From a virus: a stretch of DNA of 22,352 nucleotides. The stretch lies in the IMG/VR virus record IMGVR_UViG_3300014501_000085, positions 1 through 22,352 of that record; one strand, 5' to 3'. How positions within the stretch are numbered: the first letter of the stretch is position 1; each line of letters starts with the position of its first letter. Below the pieces are notes generated by a model. The model searched no databases, was not told the DNA's origin, and worked only from the letters and a program-made list of their open reading frames with translations. This document shows positions 1 to 22,268 of the stretch, piece after piece. The position numbers and the translations under genes were made by a program.

Positions 1-894
1 TCCTACTGCTACCCCAAGACGGTCCAGGTCATTCTTATCGAACGGACGAATGACAGGCATATCAGGGTCATCGCAGTCTGTCTGGATAAACGCCGCTCCT
101 GGTAATCCCTGCGAGCCAGCCGGTCCAGCAGCGCCAGCCGGTCCAGCAGCCCCTGGGGAGCCCTGAGAGCCGTCCTCGCCGTCTGTGCCATCCATGCCAG
201 GGGGTCCGGCCGATCCAGGCAAGCCTGAGGCTCCTGCTTTGCCTGCAGCCCCTTGGATGCTCCAGCCGTCCTGTCCGTCGTCACCAGGGTCGCCTTGCGG
301 TCCAGGTGGACCTTGGATGACCGGCAGAGTGAGCGGCAGGAACTTCGCTGATGTGGGGCTAGTCGCGGTGTAGATGGTGCCGGTCGTGAGCCCGGAGAAT
401 GCTGGCGCAGGCGCGGGGACGTTCTTCCACTCACCGCCTGAGAACCCGAGCACTTGCCCGTCTGTCGGGCTCGTGAGATCCACCCCGGCGAGGTAACCGA
501 ATGGTAGGAAGCCGAAGCCTGCCTGTGTCGATCCGCTCGCGAGTAGCACTTGGCCGACGTCGAGCTTCTGCACGAGGAAGTTTGGAGTGAGCGCAGGGTT
601 CGCGAACTGCGCCGGTTGCATCGGGAAGAGTGTAGGCTTGTCGGTGATGTCTGCCCAGGATACTTGCGCGTCAACAGGCTGCCAGCCGTAGCCGACAGCT
701 TCCTTCGTCAGGACATAGCCGGTCGTTCCGCCACCAGGGACTGTGCCACCAGCTTCGTTGATCGCGCTCTGAAGCGCAGTGACGCGATCCTGCAGACTGA
801 GCACGTCTTGCATGAGCCTATTTTGCTTTTCGTGCTCATAGGTCTTGGTGAAGTTGATCGGTATGATTCGCGGAGATGCGACAGGATTGACCAT
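1..894 (-). CDS. Collagen-like tail fibre protein (3' end cut by window edge)
   Basis: The reading frame is open from an ATG at 894 to the window edge (298 codons, no stop). The ATG overlaps the stop of the upstream 745-aa tail gene as TAATG. Residues about 25-45 look like a short coiled coil ([20 protein letters not shown]). A beta-rich middle contains a [12 protein letters not shown] motif seen in many tail-fibre proteins. Residues about 195-268 form Gly-X-Y collagen triplets ([24 protein letters not shown]), which in phage fibres build a trimeric collagen-like rod. The visible end ([12 protein letters not shown]) continues leftwards into an unseen C-terminal domain, probably the tip. Its place at the end of the tail operon fits a host-contact fibre. 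The receptor is unknown. An out-of-frame ORF over the same region is a shadow of the repeats. Confidence 0.85.
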
Positions 895-3131
895 TACCTA
901 TCGCCATCTTCGCCCGTTTGTGTACGCCACGTTCCCATTGTCCACGGGATACCAGCGGTGCTGCCGAGACCAGGAGCGGAGTCATAGACGCGTATCGCGA
1001 TCTGTCGGCCTTTGGCGCGCGCGCTTACCTTCTGCGTGAGACCAGTCACTGTGTATGGTCCCTTGAGCTTGTAGGCATCAACAGGGTATTTGCGGATCTT
1101 CACCACGACCTGGATAGTGCCTGGGATAGTTGAAGGCGACGTAGTTGCTGTGCCTGCGTGCGTCTCGCCATTCGCCACAGCGTTATCCAAGGTGATTGTC
1201 GTGACGCTCGATGCAGAGCACACGAACGTGCCGTTGTCTGTGCTGTCAGCGAACCCAGTGATAACGAAGGTAAGACCAGCGAATGCATTCGAGCCGCCTC
1301 CGGTGAGCGTGCCCGTGTAGATCGTTGATCCGGCATCAGCCACACCAGCAGCTGTGAGTACGAACGGGCCGACAGTCGCCGTGCTTATAAGCGTGCCCTT
1401 GAAGTTCGGAACCATGTGGTGCGTGTTGACTAGCTGTCCAGACTGCATTACGTCCACGTCCCATGACTCGATGAACTCACCGAAGTTCGGCGAGCCGTTC
1501 GCAAGGTTGCCTGTCTCGTGCTGATACATGCTAGAAGTGTTGGCAGCCGTGTTGTAACAGAACATGTAGGGCGCGAAGAACTGATCCGACACGTCATGGC
1601 CGCATGAGCGGTTGATGTCGCCCATGTTGTTTCCAGACGCGCCCTGACCTAGCCATGTGCCAGTGCTCCACACGCTCAGCAGGAAGTTGTAGCAGACGTA
1701 GGAGTCGTTCTCGCCAGTGCCAGCAACGCTCGGGTAAACCCACCAGATCTCACTGAACGTGCGATTGACGAACGCGAAACACTTCTCAGACTGCTGCAGA
1801 TCGAGGTTCGTGCCGGTCTCCGGTGACCCGAATACCTCGTTCCACACGTCGCACGGCATCACTGACAGTGTGCCGTTGTAGAGCATGAAGTTGTCCACCG
1901 CCATGAGGTAGCTGATGCCGTTGAAGTCCACGGCCGCGTTAGGTCCCATTGCGCGCGTGCTCTTGCCCAATCCAGTCGATGCATACACGTTCGTGTCGCC
2001 GGTAGGAGTGAAGTAGGCGCAGCTATCTGTGCAGGCAACGAAGTATCCGCCGCGAGTCTTCGTCACGGCGATGATGCCTGAGCCTGCATTCAAGCGTAGG
2101 TCCCCGGCGTTGTTCGTAACCGCAGGGAACCATGTCGTGTAGTCTTCAGCCGCGCACCACGCGATGTAGTTCGGATCGAGCGTGCCTGTTGGCTGGTCGT
2201 CAGCATTGAGGATGCTCGTGCCGAAGCAGATGATTTGGCGCTGGTCAGTCGCAACGATTACGACGTTGTTGTAGAGCGGCGCGTTCGGCGAGATCAGTAC
2301 TGCTGCGGCCCCTGGTCCTGTGGAGTGTTTCCAGATGTAGATGCTGCCTCCGCGAGGAGACGCAATGAGATCCTCCCCCCAGTTTTGTAGGGACCACATG
2401 CCAACCTGGGACCAGAGGTTTGAGACTTGAGAATACGGTGAGGATGATCCTGAGTGGATAAGTCCATCACGGGGTGTACCCCACGTACCTGCGCCCCAGG
2501 TGCCTGTGCCCCAGCCGTATTGGAGGACCGAGCTTGCTTCCATCGAGGCAACATTGTATTTAGCGCTGCCTGTGCCGCCGCCAGCGCCATTTCCAGTAGC
2601 AGCATTTCCTGCAATGATGGTGTACTGCCCTGGTGCATTGACGTCGTATATTTCGTATTGTCCATTGAGCGTTACCCCGTGGAACGTTGAGAAGCCTGCG
2701 AACGTGACGTAGTCACCAACCTGCTGATTGGTGTAGTTGGTATCTATGACTGTGACAGAAGTTGAAGTGTTTGTAGTCGTGAACGGATTCGTGAGCGTAC
2801 CGGTAGAGATCACAGGAGTGATGTCATAGATCGTGCCCTGGTTGTAGATGTACAGGTGTGAGTTCGTGCCAATCGCAGTCCACTGCTGACCATCGAGCGA
2901 CTGCCAGTCATGCGTATTGCGGCATGCACCTACGATGGTGCCAGGAGTGATGTCAACCCATCCGCCTATCTTCTGAGCGAGGCCGGATGACGGAGCGAAG
3001 CGCACGAGGTTTCCGAGCTTCCATCGCCCCTGAGCTTCGTTGTCTGCGAGCACTGACAGGATGCCTGGAGCAACCTGCATCGGCAGCATATCGTCTTCGA
3101 TCTTTTGCCGTTCATACGGTAACTTAAGCAT
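894..3131 (-). CDS. Phage tail/neck structural protein (745 aa)
   Basis: Large virion protein. The N-terminus (residues about 40-110) has the pattern [22 protein letters not shown], then [16 protein letters not shown] and YDITPV. I recognise this pattern from large tail or neck proteins encoded next to adaptor genes in podovirus-like phages; it looks like a beta-propeller or hub protein, but I know of no assigned activity. A beta insertion follows at about 125-190. Residues 602-667 form a compact beta module (GTLTGGG, then [13 protein letters not shown] and DNGTF) that also occurs twice in the 403-aa virion protein encoded at 9086-10297. No enzyme motif is visible. Its ATG overlaps the stop of the 628-aa gene (TAATG), and its own stop overlaps the fibre gene, so translation is probably coupled. 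Structural role is likely; the exact position in the virion is inferred. Confidence 0.8.
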
Positions 3132-9085: not shown

Positions 9086-10297
9086 CTATGCGCGCTCTAC
9101 GTTCACATCGAGCTGCACTTCAGCAGTCGTGGTCACAATGCGGTATGCGAAATGCATCTGCGGTGTAGGCGTGACGAAGCCAACCGTGAGTGCAGCCGTT
9201 GCCGGTGCAGCCAGCGATAGAGCATTCGACATTAGCGAGCTGCCTGAGAACGTGCCGTCATCCTCATAACCGCTCTGGTTTGGCTGACCTTGGAGTACAG
9301 GCCAGTTAGGATTATTCGTAAGGTTGTTAGGCGACGCGTAGTACTGGTACGAGTACGGATCGAGGAAGTTCTGATCCGTGCTCTCGATGTTGTAGTTGCC
9401 CGAACTTAGTACAGCTGCCGAGACTGAAGCGCGCCGGAACCCAGCGCACAGCCAAGGTGAGTAGTTCGTTCCGCCCCAGCCTGCTTCGATGGTGTATCCA
9501 CCGCCAGCCGCTGCTGATGCAGTCGTGCCATATTTGGCTGTAGCTGCGTGCGACTCTGTGACGCCAGCCGCGTCCGCGACAACGATGACTGTCGTGGAAT
9601 TACTCACAACCGTGAACGTGCCGTTGTTCCCGGCGTTGGCGAAACCAGCAACGACTATGGTCGCACCAGCGAAGTTATTCGTGCCACCACCCGTGATGGT
9701 GCCTGTGTACGTGTTGTTGCCAGCAGCATACGCGACTGCCGTGAGTGTGAGGGTAGTGGGATCAGTCTCTGCGACAGCCGAGGCATTGACCACACCGATA
9801 TGAGCGGCGGTCGCGGCCGTGACCGTGAACGTGCCATTGTTCGCCGCATTGGCGAATCCTGAGAAGGTGACATCCTGACCGACCAGGGCAGCGAAGCCAG
9901 TGATCGTGCCAAGGTACAGCGCCGGGGATCCGGTCTGAACGGCCGTGATGACGAATGTCGCGCCAGCTGAACTGCCCGAGGCTACGATAGCCGTGACCGT
10001 GGCGAATAGAGCATTTGTGCTGAATGCAGTGGCACCCTGAGCCGTTGCGGAGGGGATGACCTCGACGATGGTATTCCCGCTTCGATCCAATCCCGTGACC
10101 GTGATAGCGCCAATGACGCTCGCATCCGAGGGGGTGAACAGTACCGGGCTCGCCGACACATACGTCTGACCGGTAGGATTCGTCACAGAGGGGGCCGCAG
10201 TCAGGGTCCAGGGTACTCCGGCAACCGGCGCTGCGCCGACTGCGAAGCCTGCAGCGTTCGACGTGATGGGGGATGCGATGAGATGCAGGCGGCGCAT
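9086..10297 (-). CDS. Modular beta-rich virion protein (403 aa)
   Basis: Structural protein with visible modules. Residues about 15-125 form a beta domain (VTGLDRSGNTIVEVIPS then FSTNALFATVTAI) that resembles the central domain of the 255-aa decoration-like protein encoded upstream. Residues 127-187 and 197-254 are two copies of one module (FSGFANAANNGTFTV and VAGFANAGNNGTFTV). A third copy lies in the 745-aa tail protein. The C-terminal 150 residues contain GWGGTNYSPWLCAGFRRASV and a final strand MHFAYRIVTTTAEVQLDV. No catalytic motif is seen. A capsid-decoration or neck-fibre role is inferred from position before the adaptor. The ATG overlaps the upstream stop (TAATG). Confidence 0.75.
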   Translation of the reverse strand: MRRLHLIASPITSNAAGFAVGAAPVAGVPWTLTAAPSVTNPTGQTYVSASPVLFTPSDASVIGAITVTGLDRSGNTIVEVIPSATAQGATAFSTNALFATVTAIVASGSSAGATFVITAVQTGSPALYLGTITGFAALVGQDVTFSGFANAANNGTFTVTAATAAHIGVVNASAVAETDPTTLTLTAVAYAAGNNTYTGTITGGGTNNFAGATIVVAGFANAGNNGTFTVVSNSTTVIVVADAAGVTESHAATAKYGTTASAAAGGGYTIEAGWGGTNYSPWLCAGFRRASVSAAVLSSGNYNIESTDQNFLDPYSYQYYASPNNLTNNPNWPVLQGQPNQSGYEDDGTFSGSSLMSNALSLAAPATAALTVGFVTPTPQMHFAYRIVTTTAEVQLDVNVERA

Positions 10298-13679: not shown

Positions 13680-13708
13680 TTGACAGCCAGCCAGCAAGCG
13701 CGTATACT
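13680..13708 (+). promoter_or_regulatory. Near-consensus sigma-70 promoter
   Basis: TTGACA (13680-13685), exactly 17 nt, TATACT (13703-13708). Only one base differs from consensus. It starts 2 nt after the previous gene's stop and gives a leader of about 20 nt containing CCAGGAG before the ATG at 13735. The strongest-looking promoter in the window. Confidence 0.85.
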
Positions 13709-13734: not shown

Positions 13735-13944
13735 ATGACAATTCTAGTACTGTACAACTCAAAGAAGCTGCTGAAGTCCGAAATAGGGCAGCCGCTGAAG
13801 TACCGCGAGACCTCGATGTTCGGTGCCGAGTACCGCCCTGACGGGGTGCTCACTGTAGCGCACCGCCCGCACATGACCGGCAAGGGCCGCGAGTTCTTCG
13901 CCCGCGTCACAATGAAGGGCGGGTTGATATCGAAGGTCGAATAG
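13735..13944 (+). CDS. Small phage protein with GREFFA(R/Q)VTM motif (69 aa)
   Basis: Ribosome-binding site CCAGGAG, 7 nt spacer. Sequence landmarks: ILVLYNSKKLLKSEIGQPLK, YRETSMFGAEYRPDG, then GKGREFFARVTMKGGLISKV. I recognise this arrangement from small hypothetical proteins common in phage early regions, with full length near 65-75 residues. No activity is known to me. Placed directly behind the strongest promoter in the window, so it is probably abundant early in infection. Confidence 0.8.
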   Translation: MTILVLYNSKKLLKSEIGQPLKYRETSMFGAEYRPDGVLTVAHRPHMTGKGREFFARVTMKGGLISKVE

Positions 13945-13953
13945 GGTTATAAT
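13924..13953 (+). promoter_or_regulatory. Sigma-70 promoter inside the end of the 69-aa gene
   Basis: TTGATA (13924-13929), 18-nt spacer, TATAAT (13948-13953, perfect). The -35 lies in the coding end of the 69-aa gene and the -10 just after its stop. It drives the ATGA-coupled chain that begins at 13983, which has TTGGAGG as ribosome-binding site. Confidence 0.75.
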
Positions 13954-15248: not shown

Positions 15249-15768
15249 AACCGGCGAGATCCCAATCTCTGAATGCTATCTGCCTACACAGGAAGATCTG
15301 GACCAGGATGACTACGTGCATGTCAAAGAGACCGACGTCAATCAGCTGGAACCGGTGCCTGATGAGGTCCCTCTTGCGGATCTTCAGAAGAAGCCGAAGT
15401 ACGCGAACAAGCTCGCTGAGGCATGGAACGAGTGCCTGTTCGGCCGCATACGTGCTGGCATCTTCAACGGGTTCCGTGGACTGCAGCGCAAGCGCCATCG
15501 AGGCACGAGCGCCATGACTACAGGCAGGGAAATAGAACGCCTGAAGGATCTTGGGCAGACACCGGCAAAGGGTCGAGTGCGTCTCGCGATGGCTCACGGC
15601 CTTGGATCGCTCCAAGTCGAGTCTGACGCTGTCGAGCTGGCGCGCCTGGGCAAGTACCAGGACGCCATCAAGCTCCTGGAGAGCTGGACCCCTCACTACG
15701 ACCGACACCAGGAGCGCAAGGCGTTTCGCCTTGACCTGTGGCGCGCACGGCTACTGGTGCAGTCATGA
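15235..15768 (+). CDS. Hypothetical protein (177 aa), TPR-like C-terminus possible
   Basis: I choose GTG 15235 because AGGAG lies 5 nt upstream; an in-frame TTG at 15211 has no site. The first 60 residues are acidic (EIPISECYLPTQEDLDQDDY). The middle is very basic (GRIRAGIFNGFRGLQRKRHR). The last 80 are helical, with ELARLGKYQDAIKLLESWTP resembling one half-repeat of a tetratricopeptide. An internal ATG (MTTGREIERLKDLGQ) could start a shorter product. Largest gene of the early chain; function unknown. Stop overlaps the next start (ATGA). Confidence 0.7.
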   Translation: MDEIKTGEIPISECYLPTQEDLDQDDYVHVKETDVNQLEPVPDEVPLADLQKKPKYANKLAEAWNECLFGRIRAGIFNGFRGLQRKRHRGTSAMTTGREIERLKDLGQTPAKGRVRLAMAHGLGSLQVESDAVELARLGKYQDAIKLLESWTPHYDRHQERKAFRLDLWRARLLVQS

Positions 15769-16103
15769 ACATAACTGAAGCACAACGCCGGATGGAACAG
15801 GCAGAGCAGGCGGGTCGCGACATGCAGGCGTTGGTGGATTCACTGACAGCTATCGTAGCCGTCATGAGCCAGCAGCTCTCCCTGCAGCGCGCAATGATTT
15901 GGGCTATGTGCTCGCAGGCAGCGATGGATGAGGTCTCTCAAGATCCTGTGCAGAATCCGTGGCTCGGGCTGAAGTCTGAGTTCGCCGGGAAGATCAACCC
16001 CCTGGTGACTGCTCTCAACAAGATGATGGGCATCAAGGTAGCGCCGATCCCCGAGGGTGCATCCAAGTCAGTAGTAGTTGCGACTGAGATGCCGAGAAGG
16101 TAG
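15765..16103 (+). CDS. Hypothetical helical protein (112 aa)
   Basis: ATGA overlap sets the start at 15765. Residues 5-45 form a long helix likely to be coiled coil (EAQRRMEQAEQAGRDMQALV, DSLTAIVAVMSQQLSLQRAM), then helices to residue 85 (KSEFAGKINPLVTALNKMMG) and a loose tail. Last gene of the plus-strand block. The stop codon TAG is also the first three bases of the -10 box of the putative small RNA promoter. Function unknown. Confidence 0.7.
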   Translation: MNITEAQRRMEQAEQAGRDMQALVDSLTAIVAVMSQQLSLQRAMIWAMCSQAAMDEVSQDPVQNPWLGLKSEFAGKINPLVTALNKMMGIKVAPIPEGASKSVVVATEMPRR

Positions 16104-16106
16104 AAT
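16078..16106 (+). promoter_or_regulatory. Sigma-70 promoter of putative small RNA
   Basis: TTGCGA (16078-16083), exactly 17 nt, TAGAAT (16101-16106, 5/6). It ends the coding region of the 112-aa gene. Expected start is near 16113, just ahead of the first of three hairpins and with no ORF behind it on this strand before the terminator. Confidence 0.55.
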
Positions 16107-16112
16107 ACTCGA

Positions 16113-16192
16113 ATTGCGCGATGGCGCGCAGCCCAGCCGGGTCCACTCCTACCCAGCTGGAAGATTAACCCCCTTGAATGGGGGTTTTTTTT
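16113..16192 (+). ncRNA. Putative ~80-nt three-hairpin small RNA
   Basis: Downstream of the promoter lie three consecutive hairpins. H1: TGCGCG/CGCGCA with loop ATGG (16115-16130). H2: ten-position stem 16133-16142/16151-16160 with one C-A mismatch and an 8-nt loop CCACTCCT. H3: AACCCCC/GGGGGTT (16167-16173/16180-16186) plus eight Ts. Almost all the sequence is paired except the H2 loop and a short spacer AAGATT. There is no ORF with a ribosome-binding site. It does not fold as a tRNA and is not a Rfam family I recognise. The region could be no more than an elaborate terminator of the 112-aa operon, but a simple terminator would not need H1 and H2 or the promoter. Confidence 0.5.
16167..16192 (+). 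terminator. Intrinsic terminator between convergent operons
   Basis: Stem AACCCCC/GGGGGTT, loop TTGAAT, then eight Ts on the plus strand (16185-16192). On the minus strand the same hairpin is preceded by eight As and followed by TTAATCTT, so it may work weakly in both directions. Ends the plus-strand block and the putative small RNA. Confidence 0.9.
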
Positions 16193-16250
16193 ATCGGCAG
16201 AGAAAGATCAGTACTACGATGAGTACTACCGCTCCGATACTGATGTACAC
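16191..16250 (-). CDS. Possible 19-aa membrane micro-ORF
   Basis: GTG at 16250 with AAGGGA about 8 nt upstream. Product VYISIGAVVLIVVLIFLCR (GTG-encoded Met first) is one hydrophobic helix with a terminal Arg. The TAA abuts the terminator. It continues the run of small membrane proteins, but 19 codons can be chance. Confidence 0.3.
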   Translation of the reverse strand: MYISIGAVVLIVVLIFLCR

Positions 16251-16260
16251 GGACGTTCCC

Positions 16261-16428
16261 TTAGTTGAAGTGCCAAGTGTGAAGGTTGCCCACGCCGATC
16301 ACCCATGTGAGGATGATGAACGTGAAGGATGCTGTCATCCAGTTGATAGACGGTTTTACCGGAGGCTTGACGGAGACCGCCATGCACACCAGCGCCAGGA
16401 TCAGGGAGACGAACTGAAGCTCAGTCAT
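16261..16428 (-). CDS. Two-span small membrane protein (55 aa)
   Basis: The ATG overlaps the stop of the 95-aa gene as TAATG. The product has helix 1 (LQFVSLILALVCMAVSV), a short basic loop KPPVKPS, and helix 2 (WMTASFTFIILTWVIGVG), ending NLHTWHFN. Two closely spaced spans and a small size allow a holin-like hypothesis, but no lysin is nearby in this window and the loop is short, so the role is open. The overlap supports real translation. Confidence 0.6.
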   Translation of the reverse strand: MTELQFVSLILALVCMAVSVKPPVKPSINWMTASFTFIILTWVIGVGNLHTWHFN

Positions 16429-16715
16429 TAGCGATGACCGTGGCTGCTATGACGCCCGCCGCCATGCCAACCACCATGCCCACGACCGCCGTGACCGTAG
16501 CCGCCACGACCGTAGCCGCCATGCCCTACTGAGAACCACACGCCGGAACCTTCCCAGCCGTAGCCGTTCCAGTATCCACAGTCAGGGTTGTAGAAGCCTA
16601 CGTCACCGACGTATGCGCCACAGACTACCGGGACAGCTATACCGATGCTGACCTGAGCCTGCGCGGCCGTCATGCCGAGGACCGATAGAACGAGTGCCGT
16701 AAGTAATGCTTTCAT
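16428..16715 (-). CDS. Exported Gly/His-rich protein (95 aa)
   Basis: I start at ATG 16715, not the longer upstream in-frame candidate, because residues 1-20 (MKALLTALVLSVLGMTAAQA) form a classic signal peptide with AQA cleavage. The mature part begins QVSIGIAVPVVCGAYVGDVG, followed by aromatic/Gly sequence and a C-terminal Gly/His/Arg tail (GHGGYGRGGYGHGG, then GGGRHSSHGHR). The His-rich tail may bind divalent metal. Location is the periplasm or outer surface. It lies 1 nt after the 73-aa gene (TAACATG) and overlaps the two-span protein. Confidence 0.75.
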   Translation of the reverse strand: MKALLTALVLSVLGMTAAQAQVSIGIAVPVVCGAYVGDVGFYNPDCGYWNGYGWEGSGVWFSVGHGGYGRGGYGHGGRGHGGWHGGGRHSSHGHR

Positions 16716-22089: not shown

Positions 22090-22113
22090 CACGAACCGGA
22101 GATCTTGGGAAGG

Positions 22114-22189
22114 TTGCGCGGGCTGGATTTGAACCAGCGATGTTTGCCTTATGAGGGCAACGCTTTAAGCCGGACTAAGCTACCGCGCG
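22114..22189 (-). tRNA. tRNA with CAU anticodon (Met, or Ile2)
   Basis: Folds as a complete 76-nt cloverleaf. Acceptor CGCGCGG/CCGCGCA has a C1-A72 mismatch and six pairs. D stem is GCTT/AAGC. The anticodon arm is TTGCC-CTCATAA-GGCAA, anticodon CAU. The T arm is GCTGG-TTCAAAT-CCAGC. Discriminator A; the 3' end continues CCT, so CCA is not encoded. The C1-A72 mismatch is an initiator-tRNA feature, but C11-G24 and an anticodon stem without three GC pairs are elongator features. Could be read as Met or, if lysidine-modified, as Ile (AUA). Confidence 0.85.
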
Positions 22190-22193
22190 GCAA

Positions 22194-22268
22194 TGGCTCC
22201 GAGAGATGGATTCGAACCACCGACATCCGCCTTAACAGGGCGTCACTCTACCACTGAGTTATCCCGGA
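22194..22268 (-). tRNA. tRNA-Asn (GUU), CCA encoded
   Basis: Acceptor TCCGGGA/TCTCGGA (one G-U), D stem ACTC/GAGT, anticodon loop CTGTTAA with GUU, T arm GGTGG-TTCGAAT-CCATC (one G-U), discriminator G as in bacterial tRNA-Asn, followed by an encoded CCA (22194-22196). The anticodon stem ACGCC/GGCGG has an A-G mismatch at 27-43 and four good pairs. Four nt separate it from the tRNA-CAU gene. Confidence 0.88.

Follow-up and report, generated by a model that had tools for sequence, protein, structure and literature searches.

The DNA analysed here, referred to as the window, comprises the whole 22,352 bases of IMG/VR record IMGVR_UViG_3300014501_000085. Judging by its protein matches, which include virion structural protein PHROG 3287 and, as distant relatives, phages of several bacterial groups, the window derives from a tailed phage. 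Structural genes read leftward from 1 to 11.4 kb, small genes read rightward from 11.6 to 16.1 kb, and further genes read leftward from 16.26 to 22 kb. The element described below occupies a 157-base gap at the meeting point of the rightward cluster and the second, convergent leftward cluster. Two 11/12 sigma-70 promoters are found in the rightward cluster (13680-13708 and 13924-13953), and two tRNA genes (Met CAT and Asn GTT) lie at the right end of the window (22112-22268).

A protein search with the 111-residue sequence of the gene product upstream of the element was used for the identification of relatives. In the viral collection the family as found comprises three records only: the window, IMGVR_UViG_3300037233_000021 (G001; 54.8 kb, syntenic with the window and approximately 70% identical to it in DNA) and IMGVR_UViG_3300050138_000019 (L019; 22.6 kb). 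No relatives of the upstream gene were found in bacterial and archaeal genomes or in named phages. The region of G001 corresponding to the rightward cluster has sigma-70 sites of 12/12 and 11/12 at 9355 and 10845 of L016, and the place matching the two tRNA genes holds six. Within the structural gene at 894-3131, 188 bases (2944-3131) are 92% identical to G001, most other aligned parts being about 70% identical; in G001 this match lies where the contig begins. The last gene of the rightward operon has no PHROG match and no Pfam match. Across the three phages its product hardly varies in the stretch DEVSQDP..NPWLGLKSEFAGKINPLV, and 54 nt of its DNA match G001 at 96% identity (window 15924-16007). 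The features of the locus are as follows.

15765..16103, + strand: open reading frame of 112 aa, last gene of the rightward operon; protein homologues 87% identical (G001) and 67% identical (L019)
16078..16106, + strand: promoter-like site TTGCGA-17-TAGAAT, 9/12 consensus, overlapping the end of the 112-aa gene
16115..16130, + strand: hairpin 1 from folding, UGCGCG-AUGG-CGCGCA; present in G001 with loop AUGU, absent from L019
16133..16160, + strand: hairpin 2 from folding, with loop CCACUCCU at 16143-16150; conserved core, whose stem carries compensatory changes in L019
16159..16166, + strand: flank GGAAGAYU leading from hairpin 2 to the terminator; conserved, identical in all three phages
16167..16192, + strand: intrinsic terminator AACCCCC-TTGAAT-GGGGGTT followed by T8, from the terminator scan
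16261..16428, - strand: 55-aa gene from the open reading frame list, last of the convergent leftward operon; convergent layout also in G001 and L019

A preliminary description of this DNA had proposed a small RNA here, made of three hairpins ending in a T8 terminator, with no open reading frame and resembling neither a tRNA nor a CRISPR-repeat RNA. Folding confirmed the three hairpins at these positions as the minimum-energy structure of 16113-16192 (-40.2 kcal/mol, z -5.1), and none of 200 shuffled sequences folded as well. The two hairpins without the terminator gave a z of -3.1, and only 4 of 8910 80-nt windows, taken over both strands of the whole window, folded as well as the full segment. 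Hairpin 2 consists of a lower stem of 5 bp, a C.A mismatch (16138/16155) and an upper stem of 4 bp. The exclusion of a tRNA and of a CRISPR-repeat RNA was also borne out, as the tRNA search was negative and none of the 4227 Rfam models reached its gathering score. No second copy of the element was found in the window, in G001 or in the G002 record that holds L019.

A GC-rich stem-loop with a run of T directly after it on the transcribed strand, as in an intrinsic terminator, is present at 16167-16192 and also in G001 and L019, where the terminator has another sequence, GGCCCTGGTCACTCCGGGGC plus T7, at the same place. The site at 16167-16192 is the strongest + strand terminator-like site within 10.0-22.35 kb. 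A reading of the element on the minus strand was rejected: the T runs lie on the + strand in all three phages, the scans list no minus-strand terminator-like site at the element, and a U.G pair in the L019 stem would become a mismatch if read from the opposite strand.

Pattern searches for further copies were unproductive. The exact 18-mer of hairpin 1 matched 8 other viral contigs, which are attributed to chance because none continues into the element, and a degenerate hairpin 1 pattern matched G001, two unrelated contigs and nothing else. A loop-plus-flank pattern matched 59 IMG/VR stretches, among which the hairpin and terminator were also present in G001 and L019 only.

Of the 61 non-coding bases that follow the stop codon of the 112-aa gene, up to 16164, 57 match between the window and G001. 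The neutral reference was the four-fold degenerate sites of eight genes, which are approximately 41-61% identical between the same two phages; at a neutral identity of p = 0.6 the binomial P is 3e-9. The 62-nt alignment contains five differences, none of them at a paired position (P 0.03 from the position count alone). Identity drops to about 55% just past hairpin 2, and the form of the terminator is kept while its sequence has changed. On this comparison of sequences, the RNA part of the element is under selection, with a constraint above that on silent sites of the surrounding genes. Local exchange between phages may account for some of this conservation, since the upstream gene is also unusually conserved in its DNA (up to 96% over 54 nt).

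The more distant relative, L019, differs in what precedes the hairpin. A DUF4326-domain gene (780-1124), which has no counterpart at this place in the window or G001, lies between the conserved gene and hairpin 2, and its stop codon sits in the 5' arm of the hairpin. The L019 arms, CUCGCU-GAGGU and ACCUC-A-AGCGGG, enclose the loop CACUCCU and are followed by the flank GGAAGACU and then the terminator GGCCCTGGTCACTCCGGGGC-T7. In a model-based alignment all nine pairs of hairpin 2 were kept, three of the nine were changed on both sides and none was broken. Pairing was found in 100% of the alignment cells, compared with 30-47% when the partners were slid by one to three columns. With three sequences only, 28 of 500 shuffles reached the observed covariation value; when the arms were shuffled around a fixed loop, 10 of 5000 folded as well. 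No model match to hairpin 1 was found in the record of L019, and hairpin 1 showed no covariation; folding of the corresponding place gave an unrelated 5-bp hairpin within coding sequence. Of the two hairpins for which covariance support had been sought, hairpin 2 thus shows compensatory changes, and hairpin 1, absent from L019, shows none. The 9-mer GGTCACTCC occurs twice in L019, in hairpin 2 (1125-1133) and in the terminator hairpin (1160-1168), as if two copies of a seed (GGUCACUCC) were displayed; in G001 it is present in the terminator and absent from hairpin 2.

Hairpin 2, its flank and the terminator form the constant unit of the three phages, which closes the rightward operon and has convergent genes beyond it. 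L019 retains hairpin 2, the GGAAGACU flank and the terminator despite a different preceding gene and the loss of the promoter-like site and hairpin 1, and in each of the three phages the hairpin is followed immediately by a + strand terminator. Because this unit lies at the operon end, a structured 3'-end or terminator module of the rightward phage operon is favoured over an autonomous small RNA, with a probability of roughly 0.6. Polymerase from strong upstream promoters, such as those at 13680 and 13924, would transcribe hairpin 1 and hairpin 2 and would halt at the T8 terminator, before reaching the leftward operon that converges on this one. The selected core is hairpin 2, whose loop CRCUCCU and 3' flank GGAAGAYU are fixed; this hairpin probably protects the 3' end and presents a site at which a protein or RNA partner can bind. 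A function beyond termination is likely, as a plain terminator would not need so conserved an upstream hairpin and loop. The fold, selection on both sequence and structure, the place before a + strand terminator in the three phages and the convergent layout were observed; we infer transcription of the element as the operon 3' UTR, stabilisation of its end and a partner bound at the loop.

A stable RNA possibly released from the operon 3' end would be compatible with the structured operon end. A small RNA derived from the 3' UTR, cut from the operon mRNA or surviving as its 3' end and binding a host or phage target through the loop, is a sub-case of that reading, and the confidences in the two overlap; it is put forward tentatively, as a possibility short of even odds. 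The hairpin stays at the operon end though the preceding gene changes, and the loop and flank are conserved, both of which suit such an RNA; against it, a scan of the window gene starts gave no conserved target.

A free-standing small RNA of approximately 80 nt, running from the promoter at 16078-16106 to the end at 16192 and acting in trans through its loop on purine-rich ribosome-binding sites, is doubtful. The preliminary description had placed a promoter here, and the sequence TTGCGA-17-TAGAAT is indeed present and sigma-70-like, with correct spacing and the fold beginning right past the predicted start at about 16113. G001 keeps the site as TTGCAA-17-TAGAAT, and a 9/12 promoter at the right distance in both phages could be real. 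By itself, a 9/12 match is weak, because 11 such sites occur in 12.4 kb where 5.1 are expected. Nor is its persistence in G001 independent evidence, because the site lies in the last codons and stop of a conserved gene, the stop TAG forming the first bases of the -10 hexamer. No promoter-like site was found in the 5.8 kb of L019 scanned, so that the promoter-like site accompanies the RNA in G001 and not in L019. Hfq-type small RNAs have a tail of 7-8 T, and a tail of this length is found here; a conserved loop on stems free to change is also the expected look of a pairing seed. The proposal of an independent small RNA held as regards a selected RNA structure and failed as regards independence, given a promoter that overlaps a conserved gene and, in L019, a hairpin at the end of another gene with no promoter.

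The action of the C/U-rich loop on ribosome-binding sites, also proposed earlier, was not supported. The loop was paired with a hand-compiled set of 47 gene-start entries for the window, in which start 15235 was entered more than once; GGAG occurs upstream in 18 of the 47, which speaks for such an action. The mean pairing energy was -7.5 kcal/mol, compared with -6.9 after shuffling of the loop, and 31 of 200 shuffles reached the same level. The best two window targets, 14729 (-14.7) and 15235 (-13.0), pair via GUGGAC over GTG start codons, and their G001 counterparts reach only -5.0 and -3.8; target prediction against the window gene starts thus did no better than shuffled loops and yielded nothing conserved. 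A phage-specific family of regulatory RNAs released where the rightward operon ends, in which the fixed loop CRCUCCU(ACC) would be a trans-acting anti-Shine-Dalgarno seed against mRNAs of the host or the phage, on drifting stems, is an unlikely proposition.

An antiterminator RNA like HK022 put, in which two hairpins joined by a short unpaired linker bind polymerase and cause read-through of the next terminator, is highly improbable. Two adjacent hairpins do lie 3' of a promoter-like site, with one unpaired nucleotide between them in the minimum-energy fold of the window, but the unit measures 46 nt and stands at an operon end facing convergent genes, L019 lacks hairpin 1, and a model search of HK022 gave nothing. 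Conservation due to a short peptide (MARSPAGSTPTQLED, from ATG 16121) is still less credible: an open frame exists in both the window and G001, yet the 15 codons carry four substitutions, three of which alter the amino acid, the stop is lost in G001, the L019 spacing is off by two bases, and there is no suitably placed Shine-Dalgarno sequence. The statement that the element contains no open reading frame needs qualification to this extent: mechanical frames exist (16078-16431 with a TTG start, and the 15 codons from ATG 16121 to TAA 16166-16168), and the short one is no gene because its frame is not kept in the relatives.

Detected in raw sequence, the locus is a clear case of non-coding phage RNA with a structure constrained above the silent sites of nearby genes. 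If the loop has a target in trans, one more phage RNA regulator would join a short list; if it has none, phage operon ends can bear selected RNA structure beyond the terminator.

Among known systems, phage small RNAs with their own promoter include lambda OOP, 77 nt and antisense to cII (PMC12197685). The element resembles OOP in length and in a promoter-like site of its own, and differs in that the site is missing from the third phage. Put RNAs are approximately 70 nt long, follow early promoters and exert their effect on long operons further downstream (PMC9378689). Like HK022 put (PMC9378689), the element sets two hairpins side by side in a phage transcript, but the size and position differ, with 46 nt at an operon end here in place of about 70 nt with two long irregular hairpins near an early operon start, and HK022 had no model match. 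The alpha-r14 (cuckoo) small RNAs of rhizobia, such as NfeR1, carry the motif CCUCCUCCC in each of three hairpin loops (PMC10746234). As in these RNAs, there are several hairpins, and an anti-Shine-Dalgarno-like CUCCU loop is fixed on variable stems (PMC10746234); unlike them, the element lacks CCUCCUCCC, its loops being AUGG, CCACUCCU and UUGAAU, has no Rfam match, pairs with the gene starts of the window no better than shuffled loops and stands at an operon end. Like the intrinsic (rho-independent) terminators of convergent phage operon ends, the element has a GC-rich stem and T8 where two convergent operons meet, the sequence being replaced while structure and place are kept; unlike these, it carries a further hairpin on the upstream side, with a fixed loop and under selection, which termination alone does not require.
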